From a virus: a stretch of 25,306 bases of DNA. How positions within the stretch are numbered: position 1 is the first letter of the stretch; each line of letters opens with the position of its first letter. Positions 3,298 through 23,003 of the stretch are shown in pieces. The notes under the pieces were generated by a model. It saw only the letters and a list, made by a program, of their open reading frames with translations. It had not been told where the DNA came from and searched no databases. A program made the position numbers and the translations under genes. The stretch lies in the IMG/VR virus record IMGVR_UViG_3300032220_002049, positions 1 through 25,306 of that record. One strand, written 5' to 3'.

Positions 3298-4113
3298 ATG
3301 CCCATTATTCTCAACGAGCAAAAGCTCACCATCCCAAACGTCAAAACCATTTCTTGGCTAGATCCCGAAGCGCAAGCTCTTGGACTGAAAGAAGTCTCAC
3401 ATAAAAGCAAACGCAACACATGGATTCGTGGTATTGTTTGCCATACGATTCATGGCAAGCTTGGTAAACTACTTCCCGGTCTAGGCCCAGATACAAGCAT
3501 TGATATCGCCAATGCACGATATCAAATCAACACAACAAAGCAGGTATCGTGGGATTACACCTGTGATTTAAATGGCGATTGGTTAATCCAAAACGATCCA
3601 ACCAAGTTCTATACTTGGCAAGCAACAAGTGTAAACGGTTATACTTGCGGTTTTGAGTTGGTTCAACAAGACAATGGTGATCTCTATGAAGGGCAGATTG
3701 CCAAAGCTGTAGAGTTTATTGACTTCCTAACAGCCAAGCTTGGTATTCAACGTCAAATTCCTTGGGATATGAAAAACAACTGTCCTTACAAAAAGACTGT
3801 TAATCGTATTGCTGGATCTAATAATGCCAAAGATGTTGTGGGAGTTATGGGGCACTATCATCAAACGACAAATCGTGGGCAAGGAGATCCAGGGCCTTAT
3901 TTACAACAAGCTCTAAGAAAAGCTGGCTATTTGCCGTTTGACTATGATAATGATGATGACAAGATTTTTTGGAAAGATAAACAAAAAAATATTCTTGGAT
4001 TTAATGATGCCCAAGCGGATGGCATACCAGGACCAGCAACAGTTCGAGCATTACTAAGCAAAGGCTATAAACATGGAATGCTAGTGTCTAGGCCAATGGA
4101 TAATTTACTTTGA
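3298..4113 (+). CDS. Endolysin, N-acetylmuramoyl-L-alanine amidase with binding domain
   Basis: This 271-residue protein combines an Amidase_2 (T7 lysozyme-type) zinc domain with a C-terminal peptidoglycan-binding-like domain. Expected zinc ligands are visible: His49 (GIVCHTIHG), His186 (GHYHQTT) and Asp197 (GDPGP), with the family's supporting pattern in between (SWDYTCDLNGDWLIQ, WQA, CGFEL with Glu120). Residues about 201-271 carry the PG_binding_1-like signature (KQKNILGF.., DGIPGPATVRALL). It would cut the amide bond between N-acetylmuramate and L-alanine in the periplasm. No signal peptide is seen, so release through a holin is expected; the holin-like gene at 1801 fits. A strong AGGAGG precedes the start. 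Its last nine bases overlap the end of the opposing homing endonuclease gene, and its last 87 codons are repeated in diverged form at 4963-5223. Confidence 0.9.
   Translation: MPIILNEQKLTIPNVKTISWLDPEAQALGLKEVSHKSKRNTWIRGIVCHTIHGKLGKLLPGLGPDTSIDIANARYQINTTKQVSWDYTCDLNGDWLIQNDPTKFYTWQATSVNGYTCGFELVQQDNGDLYEGQIAKAVEFIDFLTAKLGIQRQIPWDMKNNCPYKKTVNRIAGSNNAKDVVGVMGHYHQTTNRGQGDPGPYLQQALRKAGYLPFDYDNDDDKIFWKDKQKNILGFNDAQADGIPGPATVRALLSKGYKHGMLVSRPMDNLL
3853..4113 (+). repeat. Endolysin 3'-end repeat, copy A (inside the intact gene)
   Basis: This 261-base segment encodes residues 186-271 plus stop of the amidase. It is paired with 4963-5223, also 261 bases, with no insertions or deletions. By hand count the two translations share 59 of 86 residues. 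The nucleotide sequences diverge at many codon positions but include a perfect 38-base match (3966-4003 with 5076-5113). The repeat starts at the second zinc-binding histidine, a highly conserved position. Confidence 0.85.
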
Positions 4114-4923
4114 CTCTAAAGATAATTTCTCTATAAAACTCCAACCTTTAAAAGTTTTCAATCTTCCATTTATTAAACGAAAGAAACCAGAACGATCTGA
4201 GTTTGTTTCTCTTGCTAAGTGTGCAATGTTTCTTGTCTCAACAATTTCACCGTTTGGATTTCTGAAGCGGTACAACATTATCTTTGACTCACGATTTTCT
4301 TTTTTTGCTTTTTGGATTTCGGCAGACTTCCATCCTTTATGTTCGATATAAGATCCCTTGGCCATTTTTCTCATTACTTCATAGCCAAGATCATTCTCTT
4401 GACAAAATGTCTTTAAATTTTCAACATTATGGAGTTGTCCAGTTGGATCAATATATTTTCTTGTTTTTTTGTTATGTCCAACCATGTGAGGGTTATTTTT
4501 TTTAGTTTGAGAAAATATATTAGCTGCTCTTATTTTTCTTTCGGGATCATTATCCCAACTTCTCTTTACGGCGGCGGCATGGTTTAATTTGTCATGTGAC
4601 TTTCTTTTTGGAATAAAATCATGGTTGTAACACAATTGTTTATTGTTTTTATAATGAGCCAAATAATTTGCTTCGTGGATATCTAAAGCGTCAATTTCGC
4701 ATATATGAATCACTTCAAATAAAAATACCTTAATTCCATACTTATTTACAGCGTTTTGCAGTTTATGATTTCCATGTTTATTACGTTGTAGTTCGCTTTT
4801 GTGGAAATTTGCTCTTTTGTAAAAGCATGTTGTTTGCCCAATATAAATTTTTCCATCAAGGAGGTTTGTTATTTTGTATATACCGCTCTTCATTCGATCT
4901 TTTTTTTCTATTTTGATTTGCAT
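4105..4923 (-). CDS. GIY-YIG homing endonuclease (free-standing)
   Basis: This 272-residue protein starts at 4923, with GAGGTG a few bases upstream on the minus strand. The N-terminal domain has the GIY-YIG nuclease motifs: SGIYKITN, KIYIGQT, an Arg and His after it (FYKRANFHK), the Glu of HEANYLAHY and the Asn of CYNHD. After a basic linker come two copies of a DNA-recognition module ending in KGW: one at about 150-205 (TFCQENDLGYEVMRKMAKG..HKGW), the second at about 220-266 (LARETNSDRSGFFRLINGR..FKGW). These resemble the helix-turn-helix repeats (NUMOD1/IENR1-like) of phage homing enzymes. It runs opposite to the amidase gene and lies exactly between two versions of the amidase 3' end, which suggests that the amidase zinc-site region is its insertion target. 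Confidence 0.88.
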   Translation of the reverse strand: MQIKIEKKDRMKSGIYKITNLLDGKIYIGQTTCFYKRANFHKSELQRNKHGNHKLQNAVNKYGIKVFLFEVIHICEIDALDIHEANYLAHYKNNKQLCYNHDFIPKRKSHDKLNHAAAVKRSWDNDPERKIRAANIFSQTKKNNPHMVGHNKKTRKYIDPTGQLHNVENLKTFCQENDLGYEVMRKMAKGSYIEHKGWKSAEIQKAKKENRESKIMLYRFRNPNGEIVETRNIAHLARETNSDRSGFFRLINGRLKTFKGWSFIEKLSLESK

Positions 4924-7352: not shown

Positions 7353-8243
7353 TTATTTTTTATATTTTCTTTGACAGGCTTTACAATGCGCTCTTTTACC
7401 ATCCTTAGTTCCTGTTTTTTTATTAAAAAGAGATAACGATTTCTCTTCTTTGCACTGTGAACATTGTTTGGTGTTAGAATCTAAGGCTACTTCAAGCATA
7501 GGATCATCTACTCGTTTCCAACCTTTGTGAGTTTTTCTTTCACCAGACAAAAGAAATCTTAAACCAGCCACTGATAAACCATGAGTTTTTGCGAAATCTG
7601 TCAATCCTATAATTTTTTCATATATTTTGCCGATTGGAGATATTAATCTTACCTCATATATTGCTTTGCGTTTGTCGATCCATTGCCTTGGCATTTTTTT
7701 ACCATAGTGCCAATGCTTTATACCGATTCTGCCTTCGCTTATTTTTTTCTTGGTTTGATCAGAATGTTTTTTGCCTTTTAAACCGTAATTTGGATTATTT
7801 TTTGCATTTTCAATTATTTTTGCCTTGTGCTCATCCGATAATATTTTTCCTAAATTTGATTGACTTATTTTAAAACGTGTTTCTTCACTCTTAGAATAAT
7901 TACCGCCACACTCTAAGTCCATGTTATACAGATTAAATCCATTAGTTGCGTAAAAATGTAACCAATAAAGTTCTCTTTTGTTTCTATCCTGCTGTGTTGA
8001 ATTCGGTAAAATCTCCAAAATCCTAAACTCCAGAAAATCATCGTGGCCAAGTTCTTTTTTACATTTATTGTAATCGGCTAACAAGAATCTATTACCGTGC
8101 CTGCCTCGGATAAGTGAATTCTTATGCCCAGCCCATCTGCTTTTCGGCTTAACGGTTTGGCCAATGTAACTTCTTTGAGAATGTAGGTTTTTTATCTCAT
8201 AAATTGAAGGTATTTTTGATGAGTTTTCATATAAAAAAATCAT
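7353..8243 (-). CDS. GIY-YIG homing endonuclease with C-terminal zinc finger
   Basis: This 296-residue protein has an N-terminal GIY-YIG domain: SIYEIKN (Ser in place of the first Gly), SYIGQT, Arg/His (SRWAGHK), GRHGNRFLLADYNKC, Glu of RELYWLHFY and Asn of FNLYNMD. The middle carries NUMOD3-type repeats (GKILSDEHKAK, GKKHSDQTKKKISE) and one KGW-ending DNA-recognition module (LTDFAKTHGLSVAGLRFLLSG..HKGW). The last 40 residues form a CxxC..CxxC finger (CSQCKEEKSLSLF..HCKAC), a unit usually seen in phage HNH proteins and present at the start of the 14725-15669 gene here. It lies 24 bases after the YkgJ-like gene, has no ribosome site, and probably depends on readthrough transcription. The Ser for Gly change may or may not affect cutting. 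Confidence 0.85.
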   Translation of the reverse strand: MIFLYENSSKIPSIYEIKNLHSQRSYIGQTVKPKSRWAGHKNSLIRGRHGNRFLLADYNKCKKELGHDDFLEFRILEILPNSTQQDRNKRELYWLHFYATNGFNLYNMDLECGGNYSKSEETRFKISQSNLGKILSDEHKAKIIENAKNNPNYGLKGKKHSDQTKKKISEGRIGIKHWHYGKKMPRQWIDKRKAIYEVRLISPIGKIYEKIIGLTDFAKTHGLSVAGLRFLLSGERKTHKGWKRVDDPMLEVALDSNTKQCSQCKEEKSLSLFNKKTGTKDGKRAHCKACQRKYKK

Positions 8244-9051: not shown

Positions 9052-9648
9052 ATGAGCAATTTACAGGAGTTATATAAAAAATTTCAAGGAAATCGTCTTT
9101 TAGAAGCAAGAACAACACTACTAGAAAAAGGTGTTTATCCATTTGAAATATTTTTAAAAGAGCACGCAGAGACAATTCACGCTAGTGAACAAATTGTTAA
9201 ATTAGAGGAAGTAGCTAGTCTTTACAAAAATCATGTACCAACTTTATACATGTTTGTAAAACAAAGCACAGATGTTTTACTGGAATCTAACATCCAGGCC
9301 CAGTCAGTTAAATCTTCCATGACAAATTACGCATTCATTTGTGAATCTATTGGAACTTGCGTAAAACAAGCTGCTGTTATGTTTAAAGAAAAACATGATA
9401 ATCAAAAAACAATTCATAGCATTTATGGTAAAAACGCTGTAGATCTTTTGGAATTTTGCTTTAAAAAATCTAAAGCCTATAAATTGCTCGAAGGTAATGC
9501 AGATCCTGTAATAAGAAATCTTTCACGTGAGCTTTCTGGATTGAGTATTGAAAATCTAAATAACCTTTGCGAGTCCGTTCCTGCAATGAAACTTTACGTT
9601 TCAAATTCAACCCATAAAGAGCTAGCTATTTCTTTGCTAGTAAGCTGA
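9052..9648 (+). CDS. Hypothetical helical protein
   Basis: This 198-residue protein has no recognised family. It appears all-helical: repeated 20-25 residue amphipathic stretches with Leu/Ile/Val spacing, no signal peptide, no membrane segment, and scattered cysteines. ATG at 9052 follows a TATTTATG-containing leader (9022-9029) with only a weak GGAG-like site (ACGGAGCAACG) 5-10 bases upstream. It converges with the GroEL-like gene, and their 3' ends overlap by 12 bases. It is divergent from the YkgJ-like gene. A structural or assembly role is possible given the adjacent chaperonin-like gene, but this is speculation. Confidence 0.6.
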   Translation: MSNLQELYKKFQGNRLLEARTTLLEKGVYPFEIFLKEHAETIHASEQIVKLEEVASLYKNHVPTLYMFVKQSTDVLLESNIQAQSVKSSMTNYAFICESIGTCVKQAAVMFKEKHDNQKTIHSIYGKNAVDLLEFCFKKSKAYKLLEGNADPVIRNLSRELSGLSIENLNNLCESVPAMKLYVSNSTHKELAISLLVS

Positions 9649-11016
9649 TTCATCCTCTAAGATCGCACCAGATGCAGTAAAGTATGATGCTGCCATATTG
9701 GCAGCGAAGTTACTTGCAAGATACAATGATATGCTTGATATATTAATCGATGCACTTCCATGGGTCATGGACTGATGTGTTTTTTTCCATTCTGGATTTA
9801 ATTTATTGATATTTATTTTTTCTGGTTGGCAAAAACCATAAGTGTATATTGATCTACATGCTCTTATCGCATTATCAATTTTTCCTTTAAATTTATTTGC
9901 GTCTTTTTTTGCTATGCTTATTTTCACTATGTGAGCAAGTAAATTCTGAATTCTTTTCGTTGTCAAATCAGATAAATCACTTATTGAAGTATTTTCTTCT
10001 TGAGATTTACGACGAACTTGTAGATATTGTAAATGACCTAAAACATTTGATCTTGTTTTATTATTATGGATAGTGATAACATCATTAGTTAAGGATATTT
10101 TTTCCACTGTCGGTAGCGAATCATAATTTACAAATGTAAGCATTTCGCCTTTCAGAGAGCTAACGATATCACATCCACTAACAACTGCCATGTCGTTCAG
10201 TAGGTTTAGCGCCTCTAAGGATTGCTCAAGCCTTACTGGCATTATATCAAAATTTCCCCTTGTATTATTTGAATGTAAAGTTGCAATAATCTCTTCTGAG
10301 AATCCTTGTGCAATAATAAGTAAAGGAATTTTTGTTTCGAATGATTTCGATAAAATTTTATCTAGTTCCGATACTTTATCGACAAGCCCATCTACTAATA
10401 AAATTTTTAAATTTGAACGTGTCCACGTGCCAAAAGAAGGCATAAATCCTTTAAATGGATTTATTTTAAAATTATATCCAAATTGCAAATCAATTATTGT
10501 ATTCGGTAATTCATGCTCTTCGACTACTATATTTCCTTCAATACCCGCTAGATTAGTTGCCTCTTTAACAATACTTGATATTATTTTATCTTGAGTTATT
10601 GAATCGATTAGGTTTTCAATTTCTAAAGCGGAAGCAGGCTTGCATACCTTTAATATCTCCAGAAGATACTTCTGCCCTTCTATTTGGTTATCTTCCACCA
10701 ATCCAGAATATGTTATATTTTCTTTTTTTGAATATTCTTTAGCAAAACTCAAGAAAGCTTTTAAGAAATAAAAACTAGATCCTTGACATTTGATTTCCAG
10801 CTGAAAACAAGTATTAAGTAATTCATTAAATAAAATTTTCTCAGCTTTGTCTTTTCCTGTCATGAGGCTAGCAATGAGCTGGTACGAATTTTTCTGTAAA
10901 TAATTATTCTCGCTACTTATGGCTAATTGGACTTTATCTAGGTTCTGCTCAAGATTTTCCAAGCTTTTGATAAATTTTTTTTCTACGCTATTTTTATCGA
11001 TAAAATCGTTATACAT
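9637..11016 (-). CDS. Divergent GroEL-like protein, probable pseudo-chaperonin
   Basis: This 459-residue protein (GroEL is about 548) shows clear similarity to group I chaperonins. Residues about 143-185 match the intermediate-domain region (KEATNLAGIEGNIVVEE, LQFGYNFKINPF). Residues 204-300 match the apical domain (KILLVDG..VSELDKIL, KIPLLIIAQGFSEEIIATL, NNTRGNFDIMPVR, LNDMAVVSGCDIVSS). Residues about 354-395 match the helix pair containing GroEL Asp398 (KIDNAIRACRS), and the last 35 match the C-terminal equatorial helix. By eye alignment, the ATP loop GDGTTT is replaced by CQGSSF (about 77-82), GroEL Asp398 corresponds to Asn382, and the GGG motif after it is missing. ATP hydrolysis therefore looks lost. 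It may modify host GroEL rings or act as an ATP-independent folding scaffold for a virion protein. Phage chaperonins are known (Pseudomonas phage EL); this one is more reduced. Confidence 0.82.
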   Translation of the reverse strand: MYNDFIDKNSVEKKFIKSLENLEQNLDKVQLAISSENNYLQKNSYQLIASLMTGKDKAEKILFNELLNTCFQLEIKCQGSSFYFLKAFLSFAKEYSKKENITYSGLVEDNQIEGQKYLLEILKVCKPASALEIENLIDSITQDKIISSIVKEATNLAGIEGNIVVEEHELPNTIIDLQFGYNFKINPFKGFMPSFGTWTRSNLKILLVDGLVDKVSELDKILSKSFETKIPLLIIAQGFSEEIIATLHSNNTRGNFDIMPVRLEQSLEALNLLNDMAVVSGCDIVSSLKGEMLTFVNYDSLPTVEKISLTNDVITIHNNKTRSNVLGHLQYLQVRRKSQEENTSISDLSDLTTKRIQNLLAHIVKISIAKKDANKFKGKIDNAIRACRSIYTYGFCQPEKININKLNPEWKKTHQSMTHGSASINISSISLYLASNFAANMAASYFTASGAILEDESAY

Positions 11017-11065: not shown

Positions 11066-11521
11066 ATGGCTAATAGTAGTGATAGGGAATTATTAGAAAT
11101 AATAGCAAAAAAGCTAGCTGACTCTAAAGCTTTAAATGGCGGGTTTGATAAACTTTGCCTTATGATTGAGCACATCCAGGAAAAACAAAATGAATCTGGT
11201 GTTAAATTAGATAAAGTATCAGAAGCTCTTTATGATCCTGATAATGGTTTGTTTTCTAGGGTCAGGGATATCGAGCAAAAGATTGATGGCAATATGAATG
11301 AAATTGAAAAAAAAATTGAAATTGTGCCAGATGTAAAAACTGATATCCATGATTTAAAAAAATTCCAAAAAACAATCCAAGAGATTTGCGGTAATCAATT
11401 AAATGAACTATCAGAGTTAGTAAAATTACGCAAAAATCTATCAACAATATACTGGGGATTTGCCGCTACAATTATCCTCGGAATAGGAAAATTGCTTTTT
11501 GACCTATCAAAACACCAATAA
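11066..11521 (+). CDS. Coiled-coil protein with C-terminal membrane segment
   Basis: This 151-residue protein begins at an ATG preceded by GAGGTG. Residues about 5-120 are predominantly heptad-like coiled coil (KLDKVSEALYDPDNGLFSRV, IEQKIDGNMNEIEKKIEIV, LNELSELVKLRKN), and residues about 127-145 (STIYWGFAATIILGIGKLL) form a single membrane helix followed by a short polar end. An N-terminal coiled coil with a C-terminal anchor is common in phage accessory membrane proteins (haemolysin XhlA-like and related); the motif LYDPDNGLFSRVR reminds me of such proteins. It may take part in lysis or in membrane-associated entry. It stands 78 bases before the Hc1-like gene in the same direction. Confidence 0.6.
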   Translation: MANSSDRELLEIIAKKLADSKALNGGFDKLCLMIEHIQEKQNESGVKLDKVSEALYDPDNGLFSRVRDIEQKIDGNMNEIEKKIEIVPDVKTDIHDLKKFQKTIQEICGNQLNELSELVKLRKNLSTIYWGFAATIILGIGKLLFDLSKHQ

Positions 11522-12005: not shown

Positions 12006-13403
12006 ATGAAAAAAACATATATTCTGGACACAAACGTATTACTCTCAGATGGTAATTCTTTGTTTGGTTTTGAAGAGCATGACTTGGTACTTCCACTTAT
12101 CGTACTGGAAGAACTTGATCGTCACAAAGATCGCCAAGATGAAGTGGGACGCAATGCTCGTGAAGTAGTGCGTAAATTAGCAGATCTAACAAAAATAGAA
12201 AAGGATTTTAAAGCCGGTATTCCTCTAGGAAAAAAACTTGGAATATTACGCATTCTTTCAATTGAAGATATCTGGACCAATGGAACACCTCTCGAAAAAT
12301 TGCCAGTTGAAATGCAAGAAAAGAAGAGCGGCGACAATACCATCGCTCAATTCTGCGTAAATTATGCAGCAAAATTTAAAGACCAAGTAATTGCACTTGT
12401 CACTCGTGATACTATATTACGACTAAAAGCACAGGCGCTAGGTGTTATTTGTGAAGATTATCGTAAATTCAATGTAGCAACAAGCGCAAGCACTCTTTAT
12501 TCCGGTGTCGCAACCATTGAAAGAGATGATGTGGTTGTAGCTGATTTTTACTCAAAAGAAGAATTCTTCCTACCACAAGAAGTTGAATCTGGATTGGTGC
12601 CTAATCAATTCGTTATCATGAAAAATGGCCAGCAGTCAGCCGTTGGCCGATTTAATGGAAAAGGTGAACCACTTAGCAAAATACAAAAACATCCCAGTAA
12701 ACTTATTCCAAGGAACAAAGAACAAGAATTTGCAACAGACCTTTTGTTCGATCCAGACATTAAATTAATCACACTTAGCGGAAAAGCCGGTACAGGAAAA
12801 ACATTGACCAGTATTAATGCTGGCCTAGAACAAATACTAAACCAAAAACGCTATAACTCTCTTGTGATTTGTAGACCCGTGATGCCTGTAGGTAAGGATG
12901 TTGGTTTTCTTCCTGGTACGCTAGACGAAAAACTAGAGCCATGGCTCGCTCCAATCAAGGATAATCTTAGATTTCTGCTTGGAACTAATAAACCACCTAC
13001 TGCCGCTGTCGGTGGGCGTAAAGGAAAAATGGAAGAAAAGGGCGGCAAAAATAAATTCGATGAACAAATTCTTCAAAGCTATTTTGAAGATGGCATCATT
13101 GAAGTGCAGGCACTAACATTTATTCGTGGTAGATCTATTGCAAATGCCTTTATCATTATCGATGAAGCACAAAACACTTCATTGCATGAAATAAAAACTA
13201 TCCTCACTCGTGTTGGCGAAAATACCAAAATTGTATTATGCGGGGATGTCGAGCAGATAGATAATACATACATCGATTCCGTTAGCAATGGTCTTTCAAT
13301 CGTAATAGAAAGATTCAAAAATGAAAAAATTGCCGCCCACGTAACGTTTACTAAAGGTGAACGGAGTTTACTAGCTACCCTCGCTTCTGAGATACTTCAG
13401 TGA
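12006..13403 (+). CDS. phoH: PhoH-family ATPase with N-terminal PIN domain
   Basis: This 465-residue protein is a PIN-PhoH (PhoH2-type) protein. The PIN nuclease-like domain (about 1-160) shows the acidic motifs YILDTNVLL (Asp8), IVLEELDRHK, the SGDNTIAQ segment and TRDTILRLKA. The PhoH ATPase domain (about 230-465) has Walker A GKAGTGKT (259-266), the family block CRPVMPVGKDVGFLPGTLDEK, Walker B FIIIDEAQN (382-390) and the arginine/sensor region VLCGDVEQID. PhoH2 proteins have been described as RNA helicase/RNase enzymes; in phages phoH is common and its role is not settled. A variable Lys/Gly-rich insert is seen at about 325-345. AAAGG precedes the ATG. It follows a strong terminator, so it starts a new transcription unit with the homing gene downstream. 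Confidence 0.92.
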   Translation: MKKTYILDTNVLLSDGNSLFGFEEHDLVLPLIVLEELDRHKDRQDEVGRNAREVVRKLADLTKIEKDFKAGIPLGKKLGILRILSIEDIWTNGTPLEKLPVEMQEKKSGDNTIAQFCVNYAAKFKDQVIALVTRDTILRLKAQALGVICEDYRKFNVATSASTLYSGVATIERDDVVVADFYSKEEFFLPQEVESGLVPNQFVIMKNGQQSAVGRFNGKGEPLSKIQKHPSKLIPRNKEQEFATDLLFDPDIKLITLSGKAGTGKTLTSINAGLEQILNQKRYNSLVICRPVMPVGKDVGFLPGTLDEKLEPWLAPIKDNLRFLLGTNKPPTAAVGGRKGKMEEKGGKNKFDEQILQSYFEDGIIEVQALTFIRGRSIANAFIIIDEAQNTSLHEIKTILTRVGENTKIVLCGDVEQIDNTYIDSVSNGLSIVIERFKNEKIAAHVTFTKGERSLLATLASEILQ

Positions 13404-13409
13404 AAGTTG

Positions 13410-13436
13410 CCTCTCTAGTATATACTATTAGAGAGG
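13410..13436 (+). promoter_or_regulatory. Hairpin that masks the ribosome site of the next gene
   Basis: CCTCTCTA(GTA) at 13410-13420 pairs with (TAT)TAGAGAGG at 13426-13436: 11 pairs including one G-T, with a five-base loop. The 3' arm contains the Shine-Dalgarno AGAGG of the homing endonuclease starting at 13446. There is no T-run after it, so it is not a terminator. It begins only six bases after the phoH stop, so any transcript reading through from phoH would carry the ribosome site in the closed form. Confidence 0.7.
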
Positions 13437-13445
13437 TGACGATTT

Positions 13446-14720
13446 ATGAAGTTTAAACATGAAGGCAATTTACTTAAGTCTGGTATCTACAAGATAACAA
13501 ATACAATAAATCAGCGCATATATATCGGTTCTACTAAACTTTTTAAAATAAGGCATAGTCAACACACTTATGCTCTTCGTAAACAAAGACACGGCAACAA
13601 GTTTCTTCAAGCCGACTTTAATAAATGTGGTGAAGACGCTTTTATATTTGAGCTTATTGAAATAACAGATGGAAAAACGAAAGAAGAGCGGCTTTTAATA
13701 GAGGAAAAATATCTTGAAAAATATTATGATTCTTGCAATACATGCTACAATTTTGTTACGAAAGCAACTTCATCAGAAGGTCATAGTTTTAAAAACCTAG
13801 AAGAAACAAAAAGAAAAATGTCAGAGTCGCAAAAACTCCGTTTTCAAAATAATCCAGAATTACGTAAGCAGCAATCTGAAAAATCAAAAATAAACTGGCA
13901 GCATCAAGAATATATTGAAAAAATGAGACCAGTTATCAAAAAATTTGCTGGTTGGAATAGGGGTATAAAGATGCCAGAAATTTCTGGCGAAAAACATCCT
14001 AATTATGGAAAGCATCACAGCGAAGAATCTAAAAACAAAATGAAAGAATCTTTAAAGGGTCGTATGCCTTGGAACAAGGGAGTTTATGGATATACCTCTG
14101 TTCCTTGTTCTGAAGAAAAGAAAGAGAAATTAAGAAAAGCTAACATTGGAAAAATTATTTCTGATGAAGCGAAAGAAAAAATATCTAGAAACCGCAAAGG
14201 TAAAAATGCCGGAAAGAATAGTGCTTCCGCAAAAGTTTATGAAGGGTTCCAGTTATTATCCCCTAATGGGACCATTTATACAAAAATTGAATGTTTAACC
14301 GATTTTGCAGATGAGCATGGATTGAATATGAAATGTCTATGGAAGCTTTTAAAAGGCTTAACACCAAGCACAAGGGGCTGGACATTGGCAAATACAATAA
14401 AAAAGCAACGTGACCCGGCAACTTTTCGCAAGGGAGAGAACCATCCCATGTATGGCAAGCACCACACAGAGGAAGCAAAAAATAATATAAGGCTTGCTAA
14501 AATAGGTAAAATGGAAGGCATGGAACATCCGAATGCAAAAGTTTATCGAGGTTTACGCCTTTTGAGTCCAGATGGGGCTATGATTACCGAGATAGATTGT
14601 TTAGCAGATTTTTGTCGTGAAAATGATTTGAAACCAACGAGCCTTTGTGCAGTTTTGAATGGTAGGCGGAAATCCACAAATGGCTGGAAATTAGTAAACG
14701 ATAATATCATAGCTTCTTAA
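13446..14720 (+). CDS. GIY-YIG homing endonuclease with two recognition modules
   Basis: This 424-residue protein starts with the GIY-YIG domain: SGIYKITN, RIYIGSTKLFKIRHSQH, RHGNKFLQADFNKCGED, Glu of LIEEKYLEKYY and Asn of CYNFV. A long basic linker follows, with several NUMOD3-like repeats (HPNYGKHHSEESKNKMKES, GKIISDEAKEKISRN, HPMYGKHHTEEAKNNI). Two KGW/RGW-type DNA-recognition modules come at about 270-318 (LTDFADEHGLNMKCLWKLLKG..RGW) and about 365-418 (LADFCRENDLKPTSLCAVLNG..NGW). Their sequence similarity suggests an internal duplication of the NUMOD3-plus-module unit. It is placed right after phoH, its probable target neighbourhood. Its ribosome site is held in a hairpin (13410-13436), a control also used by the T4 I-TevI gene. 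Confidence 0.9.
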   Translation: MKFKHEGNLLKSGIYKITNTINQRIYIGSTKLFKIRHSQHTYALRKQRHGNKFLQADFNKCGEDAFIFELIEITDGKTKEERLLIEEKYLEKYYDSCNTCYNFVTKATSSEGHSFKNLEETKRKMSESQKLRFQNNPELRKQQSEKSKINWQHQEYIEKMRPVIKKFAGWNRGIKMPEISGEKHPNYGKHHSEESKNKMKESLKGRMPWNKGVYGYTSVPCSEEKKEKLRKANIGKIISDEAKEKISRNRKGKNAGKNSASAKVYEGFQLLSPNGTIYTKIECLTDFADEHGLNMKCLWKLLKGLTPSTRGWTLANTIKKQRDPATFRKGENHPMYGKHHTEEAKNNIRLAKIGKMEGMEHPNAKVYRGLRLLSPDGAMITEIDCLADFCRENDLKPTSLCAVLNGRRKSTNGWKLVNDNIIAS

Positions 14721-14724
14721 AAGG

Positions 14725-15669
14725 TCACTTTATCAAAAATTTAACTAGCGCCTCAAACTCTTCAATTGACCCATTGCTCTTTAATGAATTGGCACGATAA
14801 GAGCAAAACATTAAATTATCTAGTTCATATCCTTTGTTATTATCAATGCGATCAATTGACAGAGAGTTGTTATTTCTTTTACTGCCTACAGTTATATCAA
14901 TTCCTAAAATTGGACATTTCAAAGGGATTCGATTACATAATATATCTTTTTCTGATTTAGATAAGGAATAATTTATACCTCTTGTTTTAGCGCTATGTTT
15001 GGCAAGATTAAGCAATCTTCTAGCCTTTTGTTTGTATAATTTATCGGTTGAGTGTTGAATTGGCTGAGTATTTGTTGTCTTTAAAAAAGACAATATTTTT
15101 TTAAATTCTTCTATGGTTCCATCTTTTTTTAAAGAGTTGGCTCTGTAGGATATTACCATAACGTTGTTTTTCACATAACCTTTAGAATTATCGATTCTAT
15201 CCAGCGAAGGGGATAGCCATCTATTTTTTCCTGTTAGGTCATATGGTGTTAACAACACTGGACAGCTTGATGTTAGGATAATATCTGATAGTTCTATATT
15301 AAAATCTCTTGAATGTTTTCTAGCTCTATTTTTTGCTTTGAGAAATAGCAAGTATTCTCTATTTTTGATATAGTATTCTTTTTTATATTTCGTAGTTTTT
15401 GCGGGATTTTCTTTATATCTTTTACGCTGATTATTTCTTATTGCTTCACGATTTTTAATTGCGTAATTTTTGTTATATTCTTTATAATATTTTTTATTTA
15501 TTTTTCTGTTTGTTGCGGCATTTGTTTTTTCTGCCGCAGAATTTTGCTTATAACGTTCTTTTCTTTTTGCTGAGAAACATTCTTTGCACCAAGAAGAAAA
15601 TCTATTTTTAGATTCATAGAAATAAAAACAAATTTCTGGCTTATCATTTGAGCAACTGTTACATTTCAT
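14725..15669 (-). CDS. Tandem HNH-like endonuclease with N-terminal zinc finger
   Basis: This 314-residue protein starts with a CxxC..CxxC finger (MKCNSCSNDK, WCKECF), continues with a very basic Lys/Asn/Tyr-rich region (about 30-110), and then has two homologous nuclease-like units. Unit one (about 106-197) has a Cys (SSCPVLL), SLDRIDNSKGY with Asp157/Asp160, then NNVMVISYRANSLKKDGTIE. Unit two (about 216-314) has Cys (LKCPILG), SIDRIDNNKGY with Asp273/Asp276, then DNLMFCSYRANSLKSNGSIE. The DRID..GY...N pattern is that of HNH enzymes common in phages. Two units in one chain could let a monomer cut both strands. It converges with the GIY-YIG gene with only four bases between their ends, so two selfish nuclease genes sit back to back. 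Confidence 0.75.
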   Translation of the reverse strand: MKCNSCSNDKPEICFYFYESKNRFSSWCKECFSAKRKERYKQNSAAEKTNAATNRKINKKYYKEYNKNYAIKNREAIRNNQRKRYKENPAKTTKYKKEYYIKNREYLLFLKAKNRARKHSRDFNIELSDIILTSSCPVLLTPYDLTGKNRWLSPSLDRIDNSKGYVKNNVMVISYRANSLKKDGTIEEFKKILSFLKTTNTQPIQHSTDKLYKQKARRLLNLAKHSAKTRGINYSLSKSEKDILCNRIPLKCPILGIDITVGSKRNNNSLSIDRIDNNKGYELDNLMFCSYRANSLKSNGSIEEFEALVKFLIK

Positions 15670-15765: not shown

Positions 15766-16482
15766 ATGGCAGGATTTAACCCAAATAGAAAAAAGAAGAC
15801 TTATTCTTTTAACCGCTCTCAAGCGTCACAAATTGTATCTGCCAGTGTAAATGGCAAGATAGAGTATTTTGATGCGACGTTGGTTGCGGTTGATAGTCCG
15901 TTTTATATTCTGGACATTCCGAATAGCCAAGGCATACCTCCACCACCTCCACCACCTCCACCACTACCACCCGGCCAATATGACGAGGATGTAATTGATT
16001 TCACTTGGGAAGATACAAAAAGCGTGCCTCTTAATATTACTTTTTCTTCAGAGCCAATTGTTACATTGGAAGTTTTACCAGCTGGTGGATATGAGAACAT
16101 TGTTGCATTTTTAGGAAACGTATCGCAAGGAAATATAGTAGTCAATTTATCTGCTCCGCACAGTGGTAAAATTGTTTATAGAGCCATTTACTCATCAGTA
16201 TATCCAACTGCGGTCAGTAGAAGTGTTGTCAGTACTTCTTATTTTTACACTGCTTCTGCCGGTTATAATGATTTAATTAATCAAGACGAAATTCTGGCTA
16301 ATTATTCTCTATTGACAGCTAGCACTGCTCCAACGAATATATTTTTTACTACGAGAGACATAAATAACAATGGGGATGCCGATGTTGCAATTGTGGGAAC
16401 TGGCTCGTTTGGATTAACGAGTACAGCAGTAAGCTTTTCTGCACCAATTACAAATCGAGTATATTATTTAGCAGTCAAGTGA
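15766..16482 (+). CDS. Virion protein with polyproline hinge
   Basis: This 238-residue protein has a basic N-terminal segment (MAGFNPNRKKKTYSFNR), a small beta domain, a run of nine prolines plus LPP (58-69), and then a larger beta-rich domain (about 75-238) low in charge and rich in Ser, Thr and Val. The start lacks a good ribosome site. It opens the cluster of fibre genes running to 23726. The most likely role is a fibre-attachment or adhesin subunit in which the stiff polyproline arm separates anchor and tip. A baseplate or neck accessory protein is the alternative. No enzymatic motif is seen. Confidence 0.6.
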   Translation: MAGFNPNRKKKTYSFNRSQASQIVSASVNGKIEYFDATLVAVDSPFYILDIPNSQGIPPPPPPPPPLPPGQYDEDVIDFTWEDTKSVPLNITFSSEPIVTLEVLPAGGYENIVAFLGNVSQGNIVVNLSAPHSGKIVYRAIYSSVYPTAVSRSVVSTSYFYTASAGYNDLINQDEILANYSLLTASTAPTNIFFTTRDINNNGDADVAIVGTGSFGLTSTAVSFSAPITNRVYYLAVK

Positions 16483-16501
16483 TTGAAACCGGAGAATATA
16501 A

Positions 16502-18430
16502 ATGACATATGATTTTAGAGCACAGCAGGTAAGATTAAATCGGATCATCTCCTCCGGTTCCATTCCAATTTTAATTTATGCATCATCCAGTGCAACAGAT
16601 TTGCAAGGTGGAAAAACATTCCCAGATCCTGGTTCAGATGTATTTTTGTTTATTTCTGGCAGTTCTGCCGCAAAAACTGTTTTTGGTGGTGATGTCGTTA
16701 TTTCAGGAAGCTTAACCTCTTCTATTGTTTCGGCATCGCAAATAACAGGATCATTACAAAACATTACAACTGGTGTTCCATATCTTGTCGGCGGAACAAA
16801 CATAACTCTTGCTACAAGCAGCATTGGACAAATAACAATCACATCAACAGCTGGTTCAAGTGGTGGTGACGTTAGCGCTTCTTATGTTGTTTTATCGGCA
16901 ACCAGTTCTCTGGCCAATGAGCGCATTTTAACTGCTGGTAATGGTATACGCTTGACGGATGGTGGGGCAGGTAGCTCAATAACCATATCTGAAGTAATAT
17001 GGACTGAGCAAACAAGTATATTTGCATCAACGACTTCTTCAATAGGCATAAAAACGTCAATAGATCATACCGGCGTTGATTTATTCATATCAGGTAGTGA
17101 TACCACAGGCAACGGAGCCAATCTTGTTCTATATAACGATTTAAGTGGTTTTGGATTACCAAGACTAACCCTGAGCAGTTCCAGTGGCTCTCTTGGAGGC
17201 TTGGTAGGATATGATGATGATGTTAATGGTTTAGTCGATGGCATTAATATTGATGTCCCAAACGGCAGAAATTTTGGTGTTCGTATTGGTGGCAATACAA
17301 CGGCAGCAACAATAGATTCAGCAGGTAATTTAAACGTTCGTAGTGGGAGTACCAGCACAGGCTACTTCGATGTTTTCAATAGAATAGTAGGTATTGGTGT
17401 TACTCCACCTAGTTTAGCGGGAACATATACAGATGCAACTAGACTGGTTATCAAAGACACTGATAATACCGGTAATAAATATCAGCTATTTTTATCTAAT
17501 GAATACCCAGGCACAGATTTAAATTCTGGTATAGCTTTTGCTTTTGGCCCATCAAACATTTCTGGTGCCATCTATGCCAAGTCTGATACAACAGGTGATG
17601 ATCGCAAGGGGTTAAATGCTCTCATACCCGCTGGTAACAGCTTTAGCTGGCGTACTGCGGGCGCTCATTTAGGCGAAATGACAGATAGTGGCAACCTGAT
17701 TATATCAGGCTCTGTTAAGGCGTATGCGGGCTTCACGGGATCTTTGAGTGGGACCATTGGTGGATTGCCGTTTATTGTTGGCGGTCCAAACATCACGGCG
17801 AGCTATAACAATCTTGGGCAGTGGGCGATTACTGGTTCTGGCGGTGGTGGTGGTGGCTCAACCGTACCCGGTGGTCTTGACCAACAGGTCCAGTTTAATA
17901 GCGGTAGCACTTTTAGCGGCTCATCTAACTTAACATATAACTATACCACAAACACCCTCACTCTAACAGGATCATTAACTGCTTCTACAGTTGTTGCCGG
18001 TGGAGTAAACATAACACCAATAACAGCTAGTTTGGTTATTGGTGGAGATAACACAAATCGTGCCAGTGGATCTATCTCTGGATTGTTTGAATCAGGCTCA
18101 TTAATGACAGCTGGAACTATTGGTAAGTTCGATGTTGAAGTCCTTGCAATGGATTTTAATTTAGAAACTGGTGCAAGTTGGAAATATACGGCAACAGCAC
18201 TGTGGCCTAGTTCTGGGAACTTTAGTTTTCTTGCCGCAACAGAACTTGCTGCCGAATATGGCCCAACTGCTGGCAGTTACAATCCAGCGGCAGAATGGGA
18301 TGTAAACTTTAATAGCCTTGGGGAGATAGAGCTTACGGGATCTTCTCCTGCATTACCAACGGGCGGTACTAGTTTCTATGTTCAAGTAACCAAAAAAATG
18401 ATTGCAACTTATGGAACTATAATAGCATAG
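16502..18430 (+). CDS. Modular tail fibre protein A
   Basis: This 642-residue Ser/Gly/Thr/Ile-rich protein consists of beta-type repeats. The N-terminal anchor (about 1-75: YDFRAQQVRLNRIISSG..DVFLFISGS..VFGGDVVISG) is shared with the protein at 23004-23726. Residues about 85-120 (GVPYLVGGTNITLATS) and about 417-500 (GLPFIVGGPNITASYN, then GSGGGGGGSTVPGG, then VQFNSGSTFSGSSNLTYN) are copies of a module also found in the 18504 and 20038 genes. The C-terminal 110 residues (GSLMTAGTIGKFDVEVLA..EWDVNFNSLGEIELTGS..KKMIATYGT) match the C-terminus of the 18504 product. GGAG precedes the start. A trimeric fibre or baseplate-associated adhesin that binds the host surface is the likely role. Confidence 0.75.
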   Translation: MTYDFRAQQVRLNRIISSGSIPILIYASSSATDLQGGKTFPDPGSDVFLFISGSSAAKTVFGGDVVISGSLTSSIVSASQITGSLQNITTGVPYLVGGTNITLATSSIGQITITSTAGSSGGDVSASYVVLSATSSLANERILTAGNGIRLTDGGAGSSITISEVIWTEQTSIFASTTSSIGIKTSIDHTGVDLFISGSDTTGNGANLVLYNDLSGFGLPRLTLSSSSGSLGGLVGYDDDVNGLVDGINIDVPNGRNFGVRIGGNTTAATIDSAGNLNVRSGSTSTGYFDVFNRIVGIGVTPPSLAGTYTDATRLVIKDTDNTGNKYQLFLSNEYPGTDLNSGIAFAFGPSNISGAIYAKSDTTGDDRKGLNALIPAGNSFSWRTAGAHLGEMTDSGNLIISGSVKAYAGFTGSLSGTIGGLPFIVGGPNITASYNNLGQWAITGSGGGGGGSTVPGGLDQQVQFNSGSTFSGSSNLTYNYTTNTLTLTGSLTASTVVAGGVNITPITASLVIGGDNTNRASGSISGLFESGSLMTAGTIGKFDVEVLAMDFNLETGASWKYTATALWPSSGNFSFLAATELAAEYGPTAGSYNPAAEWDVNFNSLGEIELTGSSPALPTGGTSFYVQVTKKMIATYGTIIA

Positions 18431-18503
18431 ATTAATGTTGCATTAATATTTTATTATACATATTTATTATCAATCCAGGGATGGGTTAGGAGTAGATTAA
18501 GTC

Positions 18504-19925
18504 ATGACAATAAAACGCAAAACGCAACTGAACCTTAGTGGTTCGCACCGCAATGTAGATGCCGACATTGTTTGGGTTGGCAGTAATCTGTATGTTACAG
18601 GTTCTTCGGAATTCACTGGATCAGTTAACGTCGATGATGTGTTATCTGCTTCTGGCAACCTTTCCACCGCAGGAGCTTTGTTTGTTCAAGGAGCAACCCA
18701 GCTAACTGGTGCAGTTAACCTTGCAAGCACATTATCTGCTTCTGGTCAAATTTCCACAGCAGGAGCTTTGTTTGTTCAAGGAGCAACCCAGCTAACTGGT
18801 GCAGTTAACGTCCAAGGTGATATATCTTCTTCTCAGAACATTACTGCGGCTGGTGTTGTCTCTGGTAGCACAGGTAGATTTACTTATCTTTCTGGTGCCT
18901 TAAGTGCATCTTCAACAGGTTTACCGTTTATCGTTGCTGGCTCCAACATTACAGCAAACTGGAGCGATACAAACCTAAACTGGGAGATTACAGGTTCCGG
19001 CGGCGGTGGTTCTGTTGCTGGTAGCGATACCCAAGTTCAGTTTAATCAGAATGGTGCGTTTGCTGCTTCCTCTAGCATTACCCACACAAGCGGAACTCTT
19101 GGTGTTCATGCTATATCCGGCTCCCTAGCATCTTCTGGAACAGTATTCGGAGATATTGCATACGATGGTAATATTCTAAAAATCACCAGTAATGTTTTGG
19201 TTACTCAAAGCGTGATGATTTTCGACGGAGTAGATTCCGCATTGGATTTTGGAGGAGTGACTCTGGCAAATGGTGCTGTTCTGAACATGTTCAGCGGTAG
19301 CTTGAGTCAAGATCCGTCGTTTAAAATAGAACCATCCGGCACACCTGATCAAGTTCAACTAAGGAATGTAGGTAAAGCTGATTTTGTATCAGGGGCAGTG
19401 AACCTTACTTTTGGCTCGACACTCAATGTTCACTCTGCCAGCCAGTCGGGAACCGGGTTTGCTGTTATTCCTGATACAACTGCCGGAACAGTAAGACTTG
19501 ATATCAACGGTAGATTGTTCTCAAATGGAACAAATATTTCTGCCCTCACTGGCTCTTTAAGAACAGGCGGTGCATATGGGGAACCTGATTCCAACATAAT
19601 GAGCGGTTCTCTTCTTACCGCTGGAATGGTAAATGGATCTGTTGGTAAATTTAGAGTTGAGGTTATTGGCGCTGCTATCAACGGGGATCAATTTATCTCA
19701 GCGGATCTAATAGTTGCCGCCTCACAAAGCGCAGCTGGTGTCTATGGTACTTTCGGTGTCACCGAAGTAACTCTTGATGCAATCGGCACTAATGCACTAG
19801 GTTGGGATGTCAACATCAACACAAATGGCGACATTGCCGTGACAAGTTCTATTGTCGGAGTCGATTGGTATGCTCAAGTAAGCAAGAAGATGATTCTTTC
19901 TGGCTCGGGTATCGTTATTTACTAA
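18504..19925 (+). CDS. Modular tail fibre protein B
   Basis: This 473-residue fibre protein starts with MTIKRKTQLNLSGSHRNVDA, then has two near-identical 30-residue repeats (LSASGNLSTAGALFVQGATQ and LSASGQISTAGALFVQGATQ, each followed by LTGAVN), encoded by a 90-base tandem DNA repeat. The GLPFIVAGSNITANW - GSGGGGSVAGS - TQVQFNQNGAF module follows (about 138-195). The C-terminal part (about 365-473: GSLLTAGMVNGSVGKFRVEV..GWDVNINTNGDIAVTSS..KKMILSGSG) is paralogous to that of the 16502 product. AGGAG lies about 11 bases before the ATG. The shaft-plus-tip architecture with exchangeable modules is typical for receptor-binding fibres. Confidence 0.75.
   Translation: MTIKRKTQLNLSGSHRNVDADIVWVGSNLYVTGSSEFTGSVNVDDVLSASGNLSTAGALFVQGATQLTGAVNLASTLSASGQISTAGALFVQGATQLTGAVNVQGDISSSQNITAAGVVSGSTGRFTYLSGALSASSTGLPFIVAGSNITANWSDTNLNWEITGSGGGGSVAGSDTQVQFNQNGAFAASSSITHTSGTLGVHAISGSLASSGTVFGDIAYDGNILKITSNVLVTQSVMIFDGVDSALDFGGVTLANGAVLNMFSGSLSQDPSFKIEPSGTPDQVQLRNVGKADFVSGAVNLTFGSTLNVHSASQSGTGFAVIPDTTAGTVRLDINGRLFSNGTNISALTGSLRTGGAYGEPDSNIMSGSLLTAGMVNGSVGKFRVEVIGAAINGDQFISADLIVAASQSAAGVYGTFGVTEVTLDAIGTNALGWDVNINTNGDIAVTSSIVGVDWYAQVSKKMILSGSGIVIY
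18641..18820 (+). repeat. 90-base in-frame tandem repeat in fibre gene B
   Basis: Two consecutive 90-base units (18641-18730 and 18731-18820) encode 30-residue repeats. They include an exact 51-base match (18669-18719 with 18759-18809). A third, degenerate unit (SSSQNITAAG) follows. A protein-level relative appears in the 20038 gene (LSSSGNISTAGNLLVQGTTR). Near identity at the DNA level implies recent duplication or ongoing copy-number change of shaft length. Confidence 0.85.
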
Positions 19926-19995
19926 TCTATCCTAAAATGTTTGCCGTGGGAAAACTGCTGCGGCAAACAAATTATAAACTTACAATTATTTTTTT

Positions 19996-20008
19996 TCTTG
20001 ATAGTTAT
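19996..20008 (+). promoter_or_regulatory. TCTTGATAGTTAT motif shared with the endolysin leader
   Basis: The same 13 bases occur at 3262-3274, 24 bases upstream of the endolysin ATG, and here about 30 bases upstream of the large fibre gene. Both are short gaps before late-type genes, so a phage late promoter element is possible. Two occurrences are not enough to prove it. Confidence 0.25.
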
Positions 20009-20037
20009 ATTCAATTATAGCCTCTAGGGGGACTCCT

Positions 20038-22479
20038 ATGTCATTAGAACGTAAACCATTATATCTTACACTGGACAGCATAAAACAGTTTGAGTTACCA
20101 AACACGGCGAGTGCTGTAGGTATTGACCTCAATACAGGCAAACAAATATATTATAACACAAGCTCTCTTGGTTGGGTCACACAAGAAACCTACTCTGGAA
20201 GCAATGCCATCTTTGGAGATATTACCGGCTCAAATCTACGCCTAACTGGAGCCCCCGGTGTTATAGCCAATAATATTGGTCCGTTATTGATTAGTAGTTC
20301 TCTTGGCATCACAACAAGCGGTTCTATTGTTTTTTCCGGCTCTCGTTCTTCTCTAGGTACAGAAGAAGTTTCTGTTCTTGTAAATGGCGATATATTCGTT
20401 TCTGGAGGCATTGGCACAAACGATTACGTCCAGCTAAAACCTGTAAACCTGCTTCGTATTCCAACAAACACAACAGCTTCTTACATTTATACCTCCGGTA
20501 GCACCAATGATTTATACTTTACGCAGTACAGTGGCTCATTCACCAACACAACACGTTTGCGTTGGCTTGAAGGCTTAATGTCAACGGGTCTTCTCAATGG
20601 CGGAATCATTACGACAACCAATGGAACAACCACTTTTAATGTGTCTGCTGGAGAAGGTCTTGTTTTATCTTTTAATGCTTCCACAACAAATGAACCATAT
20701 CCAACAATTACAAAAGTAACATGGCCTTTGTCTAGTAGTATACCATTGTATTACAGCGGTTCAGCACAAATCACATATGTTGGCATTGATATGAATGGTC
20801 AAGTAGTTCAAAACATAACGCCATTTGCTCAAACAGATTATCAGAACTACATTTCGCTTGGTCGTGTATTACATCAATCCAACGCTGTAACAAATGGAAC
20901 TATTTCTTCACCGTTCGTTGCTTATGGTCAAAGTACATGGAATGCAGATTTCAACCGTGCATTCGGTCCTCTAAAAATTTCTGGACATGTTGTTGCGCCT
21001 TCTGGTTCTGGAACAACGCTAGCTATTACAAAAAGTGCTGGTGACTCATTAGTAGAAGGTAGAAACTATACTACCGATCCAAATAGCCCAAACCTTGTTC
21101 TTGGCTCTGTAGAAGGCGCTCAACTAACTTCTAAAGTATTTCGTATATACAGCGGCACTTCTGGAATCCCAACGATTCTGAACAATGCTGGTGCTGGATT
21201 TACAGGCATTGAGCCCGGGAAATATAATCCCGGTAACTTGGGAGTCACAGGGTCTGTTGGTTCCGGTAAGTTCACCATTCAAAGAGTTTACTGGTTTCCA
21301 AACTCTGTAAACAAAGCTTTTTTTGTTTATTATGGAACAACAGAGTATGCAACAATAGCTGACGCACAATCCAATATTCCAACTGACTTATTCGTTGAAG
21401 CAAACAACACAGCCGGTGCCGCTATTTTTGTTGCGTATTTGATTGTTGCTTATAATTGCACAAATTTAAATGATTCAACACAGGCACGGATTCTTCAAGC
21501 CGGATTGTTCCGCAACAATGGGACGGGTGGTGGTGGTGGTGGTTCTGTAAATCCCGGTGGGGTTGATACAAACATTCAGTATAATAATGCGAGTTCATTC
21601 GGAGGTAGCAATAATCTAACCTTCAACAGCACCACAAATACACTAACAACAACAAACATACAAGTTTCTGGGATTGTTGGGGCAAGTGGAAGTGTAACTC
21701 TTGGGGATGCTTCAAGTGATATTATTACCGTAACAGGTCAACTAACAGCATCAAATGGCATAGCTGTGACAGGTGGCACTTTATCCTCTTCTGGAAATAT
21801 ATCAACTGCTGGAAATCTTCTTGTGCAAGGAACTACTAGACTTACAGGTTCTGTATATATCGGAGGGGCTGTTGGTCAAGCTTCAGTAAACACAAGTGAT
21901 ACAACACAGCCAATTTTGTATCTTTCTGGCACAGATACAAGAGGTGGTGCTGGGTATTTCAACTTCCTCAAAACATCAAACAACTACAGTTCTGCAACCA
22001 ACAGAGATAAGTATTTCCGGCTTACTAGCACAGGTGATATTCAAGTTGTTAACAGTGCTTATTCATCTACCCTTCTAGAGCTTAGTGATGTAGGTAACTT
22101 AAAGATAGCCGCTGGAAGTTCTTATTTTGGTCCTGTTAAGGAATCTTTCGCCGCTAAATCTAGCGCAACTGGCACAGTTACACATGATTGCGTGACAAGC
22201 AGTATATTCTATCACACAAGTCCGAGTGCCAACTGGACGGCAAACTTCACCAACTTGAACTTGTCGGCATCTTATGCAACAAGCGTAACAATGGTTATTT
22301 CTCAAGGCGTAACAGCATATCTGCCAACAGCCGTCCAGATAGAAGGATCAGGCCAAACTTTAAACTGGCAAGGCAACACAACACCATCAGGAACAGCCAG
22401 CAGAAACAATGTTGTTACATTCAGTATTTTGAACAACGGTGGAACATATATTGTGTTGGGTCAGCTGGTATCTTTCTGA
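20038..22479 (+). CDS. Large tail fibre / adhesin protein C
   Basis: At 813 residues this is the largest protein in the window. The N-terminus (MSLERKPLYLTLDSIKQFEL) may be the attachment segment. Residues about 75-130 are SGS-type repeats. Residues about 170-490 form a more complex region with aromatic residues (LRWLEGLMSTGLLNGGIITT, FNVSAGEGLVLSF, TYVGIDMNGQVVQ), a style seen in phage upper-baseplate or adhesin proteins. A GGGGGGSVNPGG linker and VNPGGVDTNIQYNNASSFGG module follow (about 497-530), then an SSSGNISTAGNLLVQGTTR repeat, and a C-terminal domain (about 700-813: TGTVTHDCVTSSIFYHTS..YLPTAVQIEGSGQTLNWQG..) that resembles the tips of marine T4-like phage fibres as I recall them. AGGGGG precedes the ATG. 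A host-recognition role is likely. Confidence 0.75.
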   Translation: MSLERKPLYLTLDSIKQFELPNTASAVGIDLNTGKQIYYNTSSLGWVTQETYSGSNAIFGDITGSNLRLTGAPGVIANNIGPLLISSSLGITTSGSIVFSGSRSSLGTEEVSVLVNGDIFVSGGIGTNDYVQLKPVNLLRIPTNTTASYIYTSGSTNDLYFTQYSGSFTNTTRLRWLEGLMSTGLLNGGIITTTNGTTTFNVSAGEGLVLSFNASTTNEPYPTITKVTWPLSSSIPLYYSGSAQITYVGIDMNGQVVQNITPFAQTDYQNYISLGRVLHQSNAVTNGTISSPFVAYGQSTWNADFNRAFGPLKISGHVVAPSGSGTTLAITKSAGDSLVEGRNYTTDPNSPNLVLGSVEGAQLTSKVFRIYSGTSGIPTILNNAGAGFTGIEPGKYNPGNLGVTGSVGSGKFTIQRVYWFPNSVNKAFFVYYGTTEYATIADAQSNIPTDLFVEANNTAGAAIFVAYLIVAYNCTNLNDSTQARILQAGLFRNNGTGGGGGGSVNPGGVDTNIQYNNASSFGGSNNLTFNSTTNTLTTTNIQVSGIVGASGSVTLGDASSDIITVTGQLTASNGIAVTGGTLSSSGNISTAGNLLVQGTTRLTGSVYIGGAVGQASVNTSDTTQPILYLSGTDTRGGAGYFNFLKTSNNYSSATNRDKYFRLTSTGDIQVVNSAYSSTLLELSDVGNLKIAAGSSYFGPVKESFAAKSSATGTVTHDCVTSSIFYHTSPSANWTANFTNLNLSASYATSVTMVISQGVTAYLPTAVQIEGSGQTLNWQGNTTPSGTASRNNVVTFSILNNGGTYIVLGQLVSF

Positions 22480-22496
22480 TAAAGGAAAAGACATAG

Positions 22497-22973: not shown

Positions 22974-23003
22974 TAGGAATACTTACCACACATAGGATAA
23001 CAT

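Follow-up and report, generated by a model that had tools for sequence, protein, structure and literature searches.

A GroEL-derived phage protein family without the ATP-site residues and its coiled-coil gene neighbour

Phage chaperonins of the GroEL type are familiar as ATP-driven machines, which raises the question of whether a phage can keep such a protein after its ATP site has gone and, if so, what the protein would be kept for. The question is posed by a minus-strand gene in a 25,306-nucleotide stretch of DNA (hereafter the window), a 25-kb fragment of a virus genome of phage type. A sequence-only reading of the window had described the gene product as a GroEL-like protein, about 90 residues short, that appeared to have lost ATP binding and hydrolysis. 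The following features of the gene are used throughout.

9637..11016, minus strand: pseudo-chaperonin gene (product P0001, 459 aa), GroEL-derived, without the ATP site
10780..10788, minus strand: codons 77-79, CQG, the first half of the CQGSSF that replaces GDGTTT
9871..9873, minus strand: codon 382, Asn in place of GroEL Asp398
9934..10479, minus strand: apical domain, residues ~180-361, the best conserved domain of the family
9640..9837, minus strand: C-terminal equatorial remnant, residues 394-459

A GroEL-derived gene and its ATP site

We began with the relationship of P0001 to GroEL. The phage family phrog_5725 ("chaperonin groEL") matched the protein at E 1.6e-22, the NCBIfam GroEL family at E 2.5e-21, and GroEL structures in the PDB at a best E of 1.9e-14; these values are far beyond chance, and chance similarity was rejected accordingly. 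The similarity to these families and structures mainly spans the intermediate and apical domains. Pfam Cpn60_TCP1 (PF00118) gave no match at E<1, and the scores against the NCBIfam GroEL models were 75 bits versus a cut-off of 352 and, for TIGR02348, 60 versus 582. All significant NCBIfam matches of P0001, L120, and L139 were of GroEL type, with none to CCT or thermosome. As an independent test of the fold, an AlphaFold model was built from six orthologues alone, without any canonical GroEL; its pLDDT was a modest 66, and it matched Hsp60/GroEL over its full length (E 6e-20). Adding 32 canonical viral GroELs gave a model of pLDDT 82.5 in which 450 residues align to GroEL residues 1 to 524 (Z 28.7, 4.1 A rmsd), a result that leans on GroEL sequences by construction. 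The three-domain equatorial-intermediate-apical fold is present in the predicted models of P0001 from the first residue to the last. Ten matches in the BFVD viral fold library were significant. They are unnamed or annotated as GroEL/Hsp60 or thermosome/TCP-1, and every GroEL entry among them is longer than P0001. Thus, the profile matches and the whole-length fold match both bear out the GroEL likeness noticed at the outset, as does the comparison of 459 aa with the 548 aa of E. coli GroEL for the shortfall of about 90 residues.

The gene is also maintained by selection. Two near copies in IMG/VR (L001 and L002) differ from the window gene by 5-6 synonymous and 1-2 amino-acid-changing codons, where about 76% amino-acid changes would be expected under neutrality, and among orthologues at 58-63% identity (L010 and L104-L107) dN/dS was ~0.1 to 0.2 wherever dS could be estimated. 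In those same orthologous contigs, the gene order over about 12 genes is that of the window. The pseudo-chaperonin gene is therefore under purifying selection and is a core gene of the window's phage group; a pseudogene or frameshift was rejected, since the frames are open throughout and dN/dS is ~0.1.

Alignment to GroEL confirmed the three ATP-site changes that had been proposed from the letters of the window. GDGTTT (GroEL 86-91) is replaced by CQGSSF, with an alignment register uncertain by 1-2 residues and the helix after the phosphate loop starting at Ser80; Asp398 aligns to Asn382; and the GGG of GroEL 414-416 is gone. Thr30, Gly32, and Pro33 of E. coli GroEL are likewise all replaced and the 34-52 stem-loop is shortened. 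The alignment further places a deletion at GroEL ~430-495, which removes the inter-ring residues E434, E461, S463, and V464 (R452 aligns to a small residue) together with the nucleotide-base pocket residues N479, A480, A481, I493, and D495. The lost length falls mainly in the C-terminal equatorial half (64 residues versus ~117 in GroEL) and in part of the stem-loop, while the last helix and the C-terminal strand are retained. The second catalytic aspartate, Asp52, is Asn in P0001 and Asp in three of the six closest sequences (the window copy included); because it varies among orthologues, the claim of catalytic loss does not rest upon it. The sequence-only reading had looked to a structure model and to homologues for possible counter-examples. 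The model has the GroEL fold without the base-pocket segment, and the homologues never have Asp at position 398. A pocket kept intact with other residues is likewise unsupported, since the segment that would form it is deleted in the predicted model alignment. P0001 is very unlikely to be a GroEL-type ATPase, catalytic loss in the pseudo-chaperonin is very likely, and the pseudo-chaperonins in general are predicted to have no ATPase activity.

A family of reduced chaperonins and its conserved apical domain

Searching with the orthologues only recovered near relatives only, but a profile search of other large phage contigs went further. On a 309-kb phage contig that carries an intact GroEL it gave a second match, a 416-aa protein with Val at position 398, whose gene adjoins a homologue of the window ORF at 11066-11521. 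The family now comprises about 31 distinct phage pseudo-chaperonins of 375-498 aa, the exception being a 567-aa open frame (L145). Across these homologues position 398 is N, V, I, L, M, Y, R, E, or S and never Asp, position 87 is never Asp, and the GGG that follows position 398 is absent; in 79 control viral GroELs the ATP site is intact as far as each sequence extends over it. Of the C-terminal equatorial part, 27-80 residues remain in the pseudo-chaperonins versus 115-120 in most GroELs, and the short members, with 27-43 residues there, have neither the C-terminal helix nor the ring strand. P0001 has each of the family traits: it is GroEL-derived, falls within 375-498 aa, has no Asp87 or Asp398, has a shortened C-terminal equatorial part, and is encoded beside a coiled-coil gene. 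No close relatives were found in bacterial and archaeal genomes, and a short member had no match in named phages by tblastn. The PhoH relatives L090-L103 (42-45%) were rejected as tracers of the family, as PhoH is all that they have in common with the window. A match in the public record "Acinetobacter phage MD-2021a" was set aside as host chromosome, given its glpD, pckG, and groS neighbours, and was kept only as a GroEL sequence; this record (L005, CAKLQH020000021.1) carries ordinary host groS, groL, glpD, and pckG and seems to be mislabelled or contaminated.

In a tree of the intermediate and apical domains, all of the pseudo-chaperonins lie on one side of a single branch (SH-aLRT 100), and the canonical GroELs, including those adjacent to a coiled-coil gene and those from the same phages, lie apart from them. 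The tree favours a single origin, though with limited strength because long branches meet at the separating branch; the branch to the pseudo-chaperonins is itself very long, which limits inference of their exact origin. A recent duplication of the same phage's own GroEL is unsupported, since those GroELs group with other GroELs.

Intact GroEL and a pseudo-chaperonin occur together in five contigs of 119-309 kb (G003, G004, G008, G022, and G023), so the pseudo-chaperonin is an extra, specialised protein in these phages. In G004, genes for the portal, head protease, and T4-type Gp23 capsid protein are found no more than about 13 kb from the intact GroEL, and the pseudo-chaperonin lies in a tail-fibre/PhoH/amidase block. 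GroEL was not found in five other pseudo-chaperonin-carrying contigs of 129-200 kb, which may be incomplete. Searches for co-chaperonins gave no Cpn10 (GroES) match in 7 plus 11 possibly incomplete phage contigs, phage GroES being potentially very divergent, and no T4 gp31 match in 5 phage contigs that are likewise possibly incomplete.

The apical domain has itself changed at the client/GroES site. In P0001, F204 is Lys, L234 is Asp, and V263 is His; Tyr203 has become Phe, and the residues at L237 and L259 are still hydrophobic. Every long member has Asp in place of Leu234, where the short members have His or Asn, and Val263 is mostly Lys or His across the pseudo-chaperonins. Mean identity within the apical domain was 56% for the long pseudo-chaperonins (other parts 31-43%) and 42% for the short ones (other parts 17-36%), while the canonical GroELs had 44% in the apical domain, 51% in the N-terminal equatorial part, 50-62% in the intermediate parts, and 41% in the C-terminal equatorial part. 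Conservation has thus moved from the equatorial to the apical domain in the pseudo-chaperonins. Such a pattern would be expected if a specific apical contact, rather than the ATPase, is the function retained; alternatively, it could be due to self-assembly or to drift of the remaining parts.

Several known systems resemble this family in part. The chaperonins of phages EL, OBP, and AR9 have been described as ATP-dependent (PMC9598537), and that of EL keeps the catalytic aspartate as Asp412 (PMC7185714). The pseudo-chaperonins share with these and other group I GroEL/Hsp60 proteins a three-domain fold and clear intermediate and apical sequence homology, but unlike those of EL, OBP, and AR9 they are without Asp398, GDGTTT, the base pocket, and the inter-ring surface and are mostly 375-498 aa long. 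Chlamydial GroEL2 and GroEL3 have reduced ATPase activity. As divergent GroEL paralogues beside an intact GroEL, they form a bacterial precedent; they differ in belonging to a cellular genome and in being represented by models of 506-533 positions, and P0001 matches the corresponding NCBIfam "variant chaperonin" exceptions weakly (40.5 and 31.2 bits versus a cut-off of 600). The vertebrate proteins BBS6/MKKS and BBS12 are chaperonin-derived, have an altered ATP hydrolysis motif, and do not form CCT-like rings (PMC5534436), so that their likeness is one of functional analogy; they are eukaryotic and related to CCT (group II), with no phage link and no partner gene encoding a coiled coil with a membrane helix. 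Minichaperones made from the GroEL apical domain bind non-native proteins without a ring (PMC4973282), but these are engineered fragments, whereas the pseudo-chaperonin is a natural protein, still on a reduced base and with its groove residues altered. The literature searched, largely open-access, yielded no report of an ATPase-dead phage chaperonin family.

The coiled-coil neighbour and the surrounding block

The genes around the pseudo-chaperonin gene are as follows.

11066..11521, plus strand: coiled-coil partner gene, 151 aa; motifs ALNGGFD and YDPDxGLFSR; membrane helix predicted at the C-terminus
9052..9648, plus strand: 198-aa protein with no assigned family, convergent with the pseudo-chaperonin gene and overlapping its 3' end
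12006..13403, plus strand: PIN-PhoH protein, belonging to the conserved block that surrounds the pair
4105-4923 (minus), 7353-8243 (minus), 13446-14720 (plus), and 14725-15669 (minus): GIY-YIG-type/HNH-like ORFs

In the window, the partner gene is divergent from the pseudo-chaperonin gene, with 49 bp between them. Members of the partner family have an N-terminal ALNGGFD motif, a DPxxGLFSR motif, and, in nearly all cases, a hydrophobic C-terminal segment of membrane-helix type, as predicted from hydropathy alone; the L153 open frame shows none. Some members resemble phage membrane coiled-coil proteins of the XhlA/haemolysin type in their C-terminal half, with matches to the phage "hemolysin" families phrog_1193 (E 5.7e-6) and phrog_937, but those families have neither the ALNGGFD N-terminal half nor a link to a chaperonin gene. 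The NGGF within the partner's motif may resemble the mobile loop of GroES. The window copy had no convincing family match, and tblastn against named phages found no match to the partner.

To examine the pairing from the partner's side, the partner was used as bait with no chaperonin required, which gave 35 loci. A pseudo-chaperonin directly adjoins the partner at 29 of these, and a canonical GroEL stands beside it at three more (L151, L158, and L159). The remaining three (L148-L150) have no pseudo-chaperonin in the flank, and both of the records searched among them hold one elsewhere. Several of the 35 contigs nearly duplicate each other, and in most of these phages PhoH, hyp97, hyp105, and hyp152 are inherited as a block with the pair; the adjacency is therefore weaker evidence than 32 of 35 suggests. 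Three arrangements were observed, namely a divergent pair, a coiled-coil gene followed by a pseudo-chaperonin on the same strand, and a GroEL followed by a coiled-coil gene. In the last of these (L151, L158, and L159), the ALNGGFD coiled-coil gene comes immediately downstream of an intact GroEL, on contigs that otherwise share almost nothing with the window, their one other common gene being weakly similar and RNaseH-like. The three arrangements and the canonical-GroEL pair provide the stronger and more independent support for the partner link, and phage GroEL in general may have the ALNGGFD coiled-coil protein as an overlooked partner.

The block lies between tail-fibre-like genes and an amidase in window-type phages, and the near orthologous contigs have the 198-aa gene at the same place. 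Positions 15766-23726 (plus strand) of the window hold a run of large, SGS-rich, tail-fibre-like proteins, and 22497-22973 encodes an F5/8 type C (discoidin) protein. Three GIY-YIG-type ORFs and an HNH-like ORF with two similar halves sit between core genes (the GIY-YIG assignment is a Pfam match for the first ORF and a similarity for the others); they look like recent mobile insertions, as orthologous contigs have none or have them elsewhere. Two of the orthologous contigs hold further genes of note. On L104, the protein encoded at 20135-20989 (minus strand) matches Fe/Mn superoxide dismutase, with E 1e-14 for the C-terminal domain and a weak, below-cut-off match for the N-terminal one, and a related ORF lies at 12838-13770 (minus strand) of L010; this could be a second degenerate enzyme, some of its metal ligands possibly having been lost as judged by eye. 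L010 also carries, at 14045-14713 (plus strand) and cut by the end of the stretch, an adenylosuccinate synthetase of PurA/PurZ type (E 4e-79), which, if it is the PurZ form, would suggest that the genome contains modified adenine.

Possible roles of the protein

The reading that we prefer, at about even odds of being right, gives the pseudo-chaperonin a role in binding or assembly that needs no ATP and relies on the apical domain; the coiled-coil partner would either work with the protein or bring it to the membrane. A lineage of large tailed phages would have captured a GroEL subunit long ago and made it a non-ATPase, giving up the phosphate loop and Asp398, the catalytic residue, together with the nucleotide-base pocket and the inter-ring surface, and keeping the apical, gripping domain on a reduced intermediate and equatorial base. 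The apical groove, polar at fixed positions, would recognise one specific protein, or a small set, of phage or host origin, and the partner, by its C-terminal membrane helix, would place the pseudo-chaperonin at the membrane, or both would act together. The link between the two genes is a genomic one. Binding by the apical domain, contact with the partner, location at the membrane, and the identity of the client are predictions.

The suggestion that the protein might enter GroEL rings can be put more broadly, as a regulatory or adaptor subunit of mixed rings with phage or host GroEL that alters client range or cycle and has the coiled-coil protein as a shared cofactor. Five contigs have both chaperonins, three contigs place the coiled-coil family beside an intact GroEL (so that it may be a general chaperonin cofactor), the long members retain the elements that make intra-ring contacts (the N-terminal strand, the last helix, and the C-terminal strand), and hetero-oligomeric chloroplast Cpn60 is a precedent (PMC5904260). 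We nevertheless consider such a subunit rather unlikely, given the deletion of E434, E461, S463, and V464, the small residue at R452, and the shortened 34-52 stem-loop; the short members have lost the C-terminal helix and strand as well. The intact GroEL genes, moreover, lie far away and cluster with other GroELs outside the pseudo-chaperonin clade, and the contigs of 129-200 kb, though possibly incomplete, carry a pseudo-chaperonin and no detected GroEL. Three facts thus make plain co-assembly into GroEL-type rings less likely and favour binding by the apical domain together with a membrane-anchored partner: several of these phages have an intact GroEL of their own, the ring contacts are lost (the inter-ring ones generally and the C-terminal ring strand in the short branch), and the pairing with the partner gene is conserved.

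Two further roles would leave the partner aside. A chaperone or scaffold dedicated to virion parts (tail fibres, say, or the head as it assembles at the membrane) would make the coiled-coil gene merely a neighbour in an old block; this agrees with the position of the window-type block between tail-fibre-like genes and the amidase and with the co-inheritance of PhoH, hyp97, hyp105, and hyp152, but is quite unlikely when the coiled-coil gene stays adjacent to a chaperonin as orientation and neighbours change, even beside a canonical GroEL. Degenerate host proteins commonly serve phages as decoys. By that habit, one might propose an anti-host factor, either a counter-defence sponge or a decoy or inhibitor that ties up GroEL of the host, GroES, or the clients of GroEL, and loss of the ATPase with retention of the apical domain would fit a trap. 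Such a factor is distinctly improbable, as the positions of F204, L234, and V263 are polar in window-type members, which argues against mimicry of general client binding, and, unlike arms-race genes, the pseudo-chaperonin has long stayed in synteny with core genes of the phage and its apical domain gives no hint of rapid diversification.

Returning to the preferred reading in its widest form, namely an old and widespread two-part phage system in which an ATPase-stripped chaperonin and a tail-anchored coiled-coil protein act at the membrane, sometimes alongside an ATP-driven GroEL, we regard it as plausible at somewhat less than an even chance. If true, it would be a natural chaperonin-derived phage machine that runs without ATP. 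A conserved ATP-free family in which the gripping domain persists would reveal which part of a chaperonin is useful by itself, and its intermediates, from about 500 down to 375 residues, form a natural series of chaperonin reduction. Phages that have both an intact GroEL and the reduced form allow the two roles to be compared, and the coiled-coil protein is a testable candidate for a chaperonin partner in a group without detected GroES.
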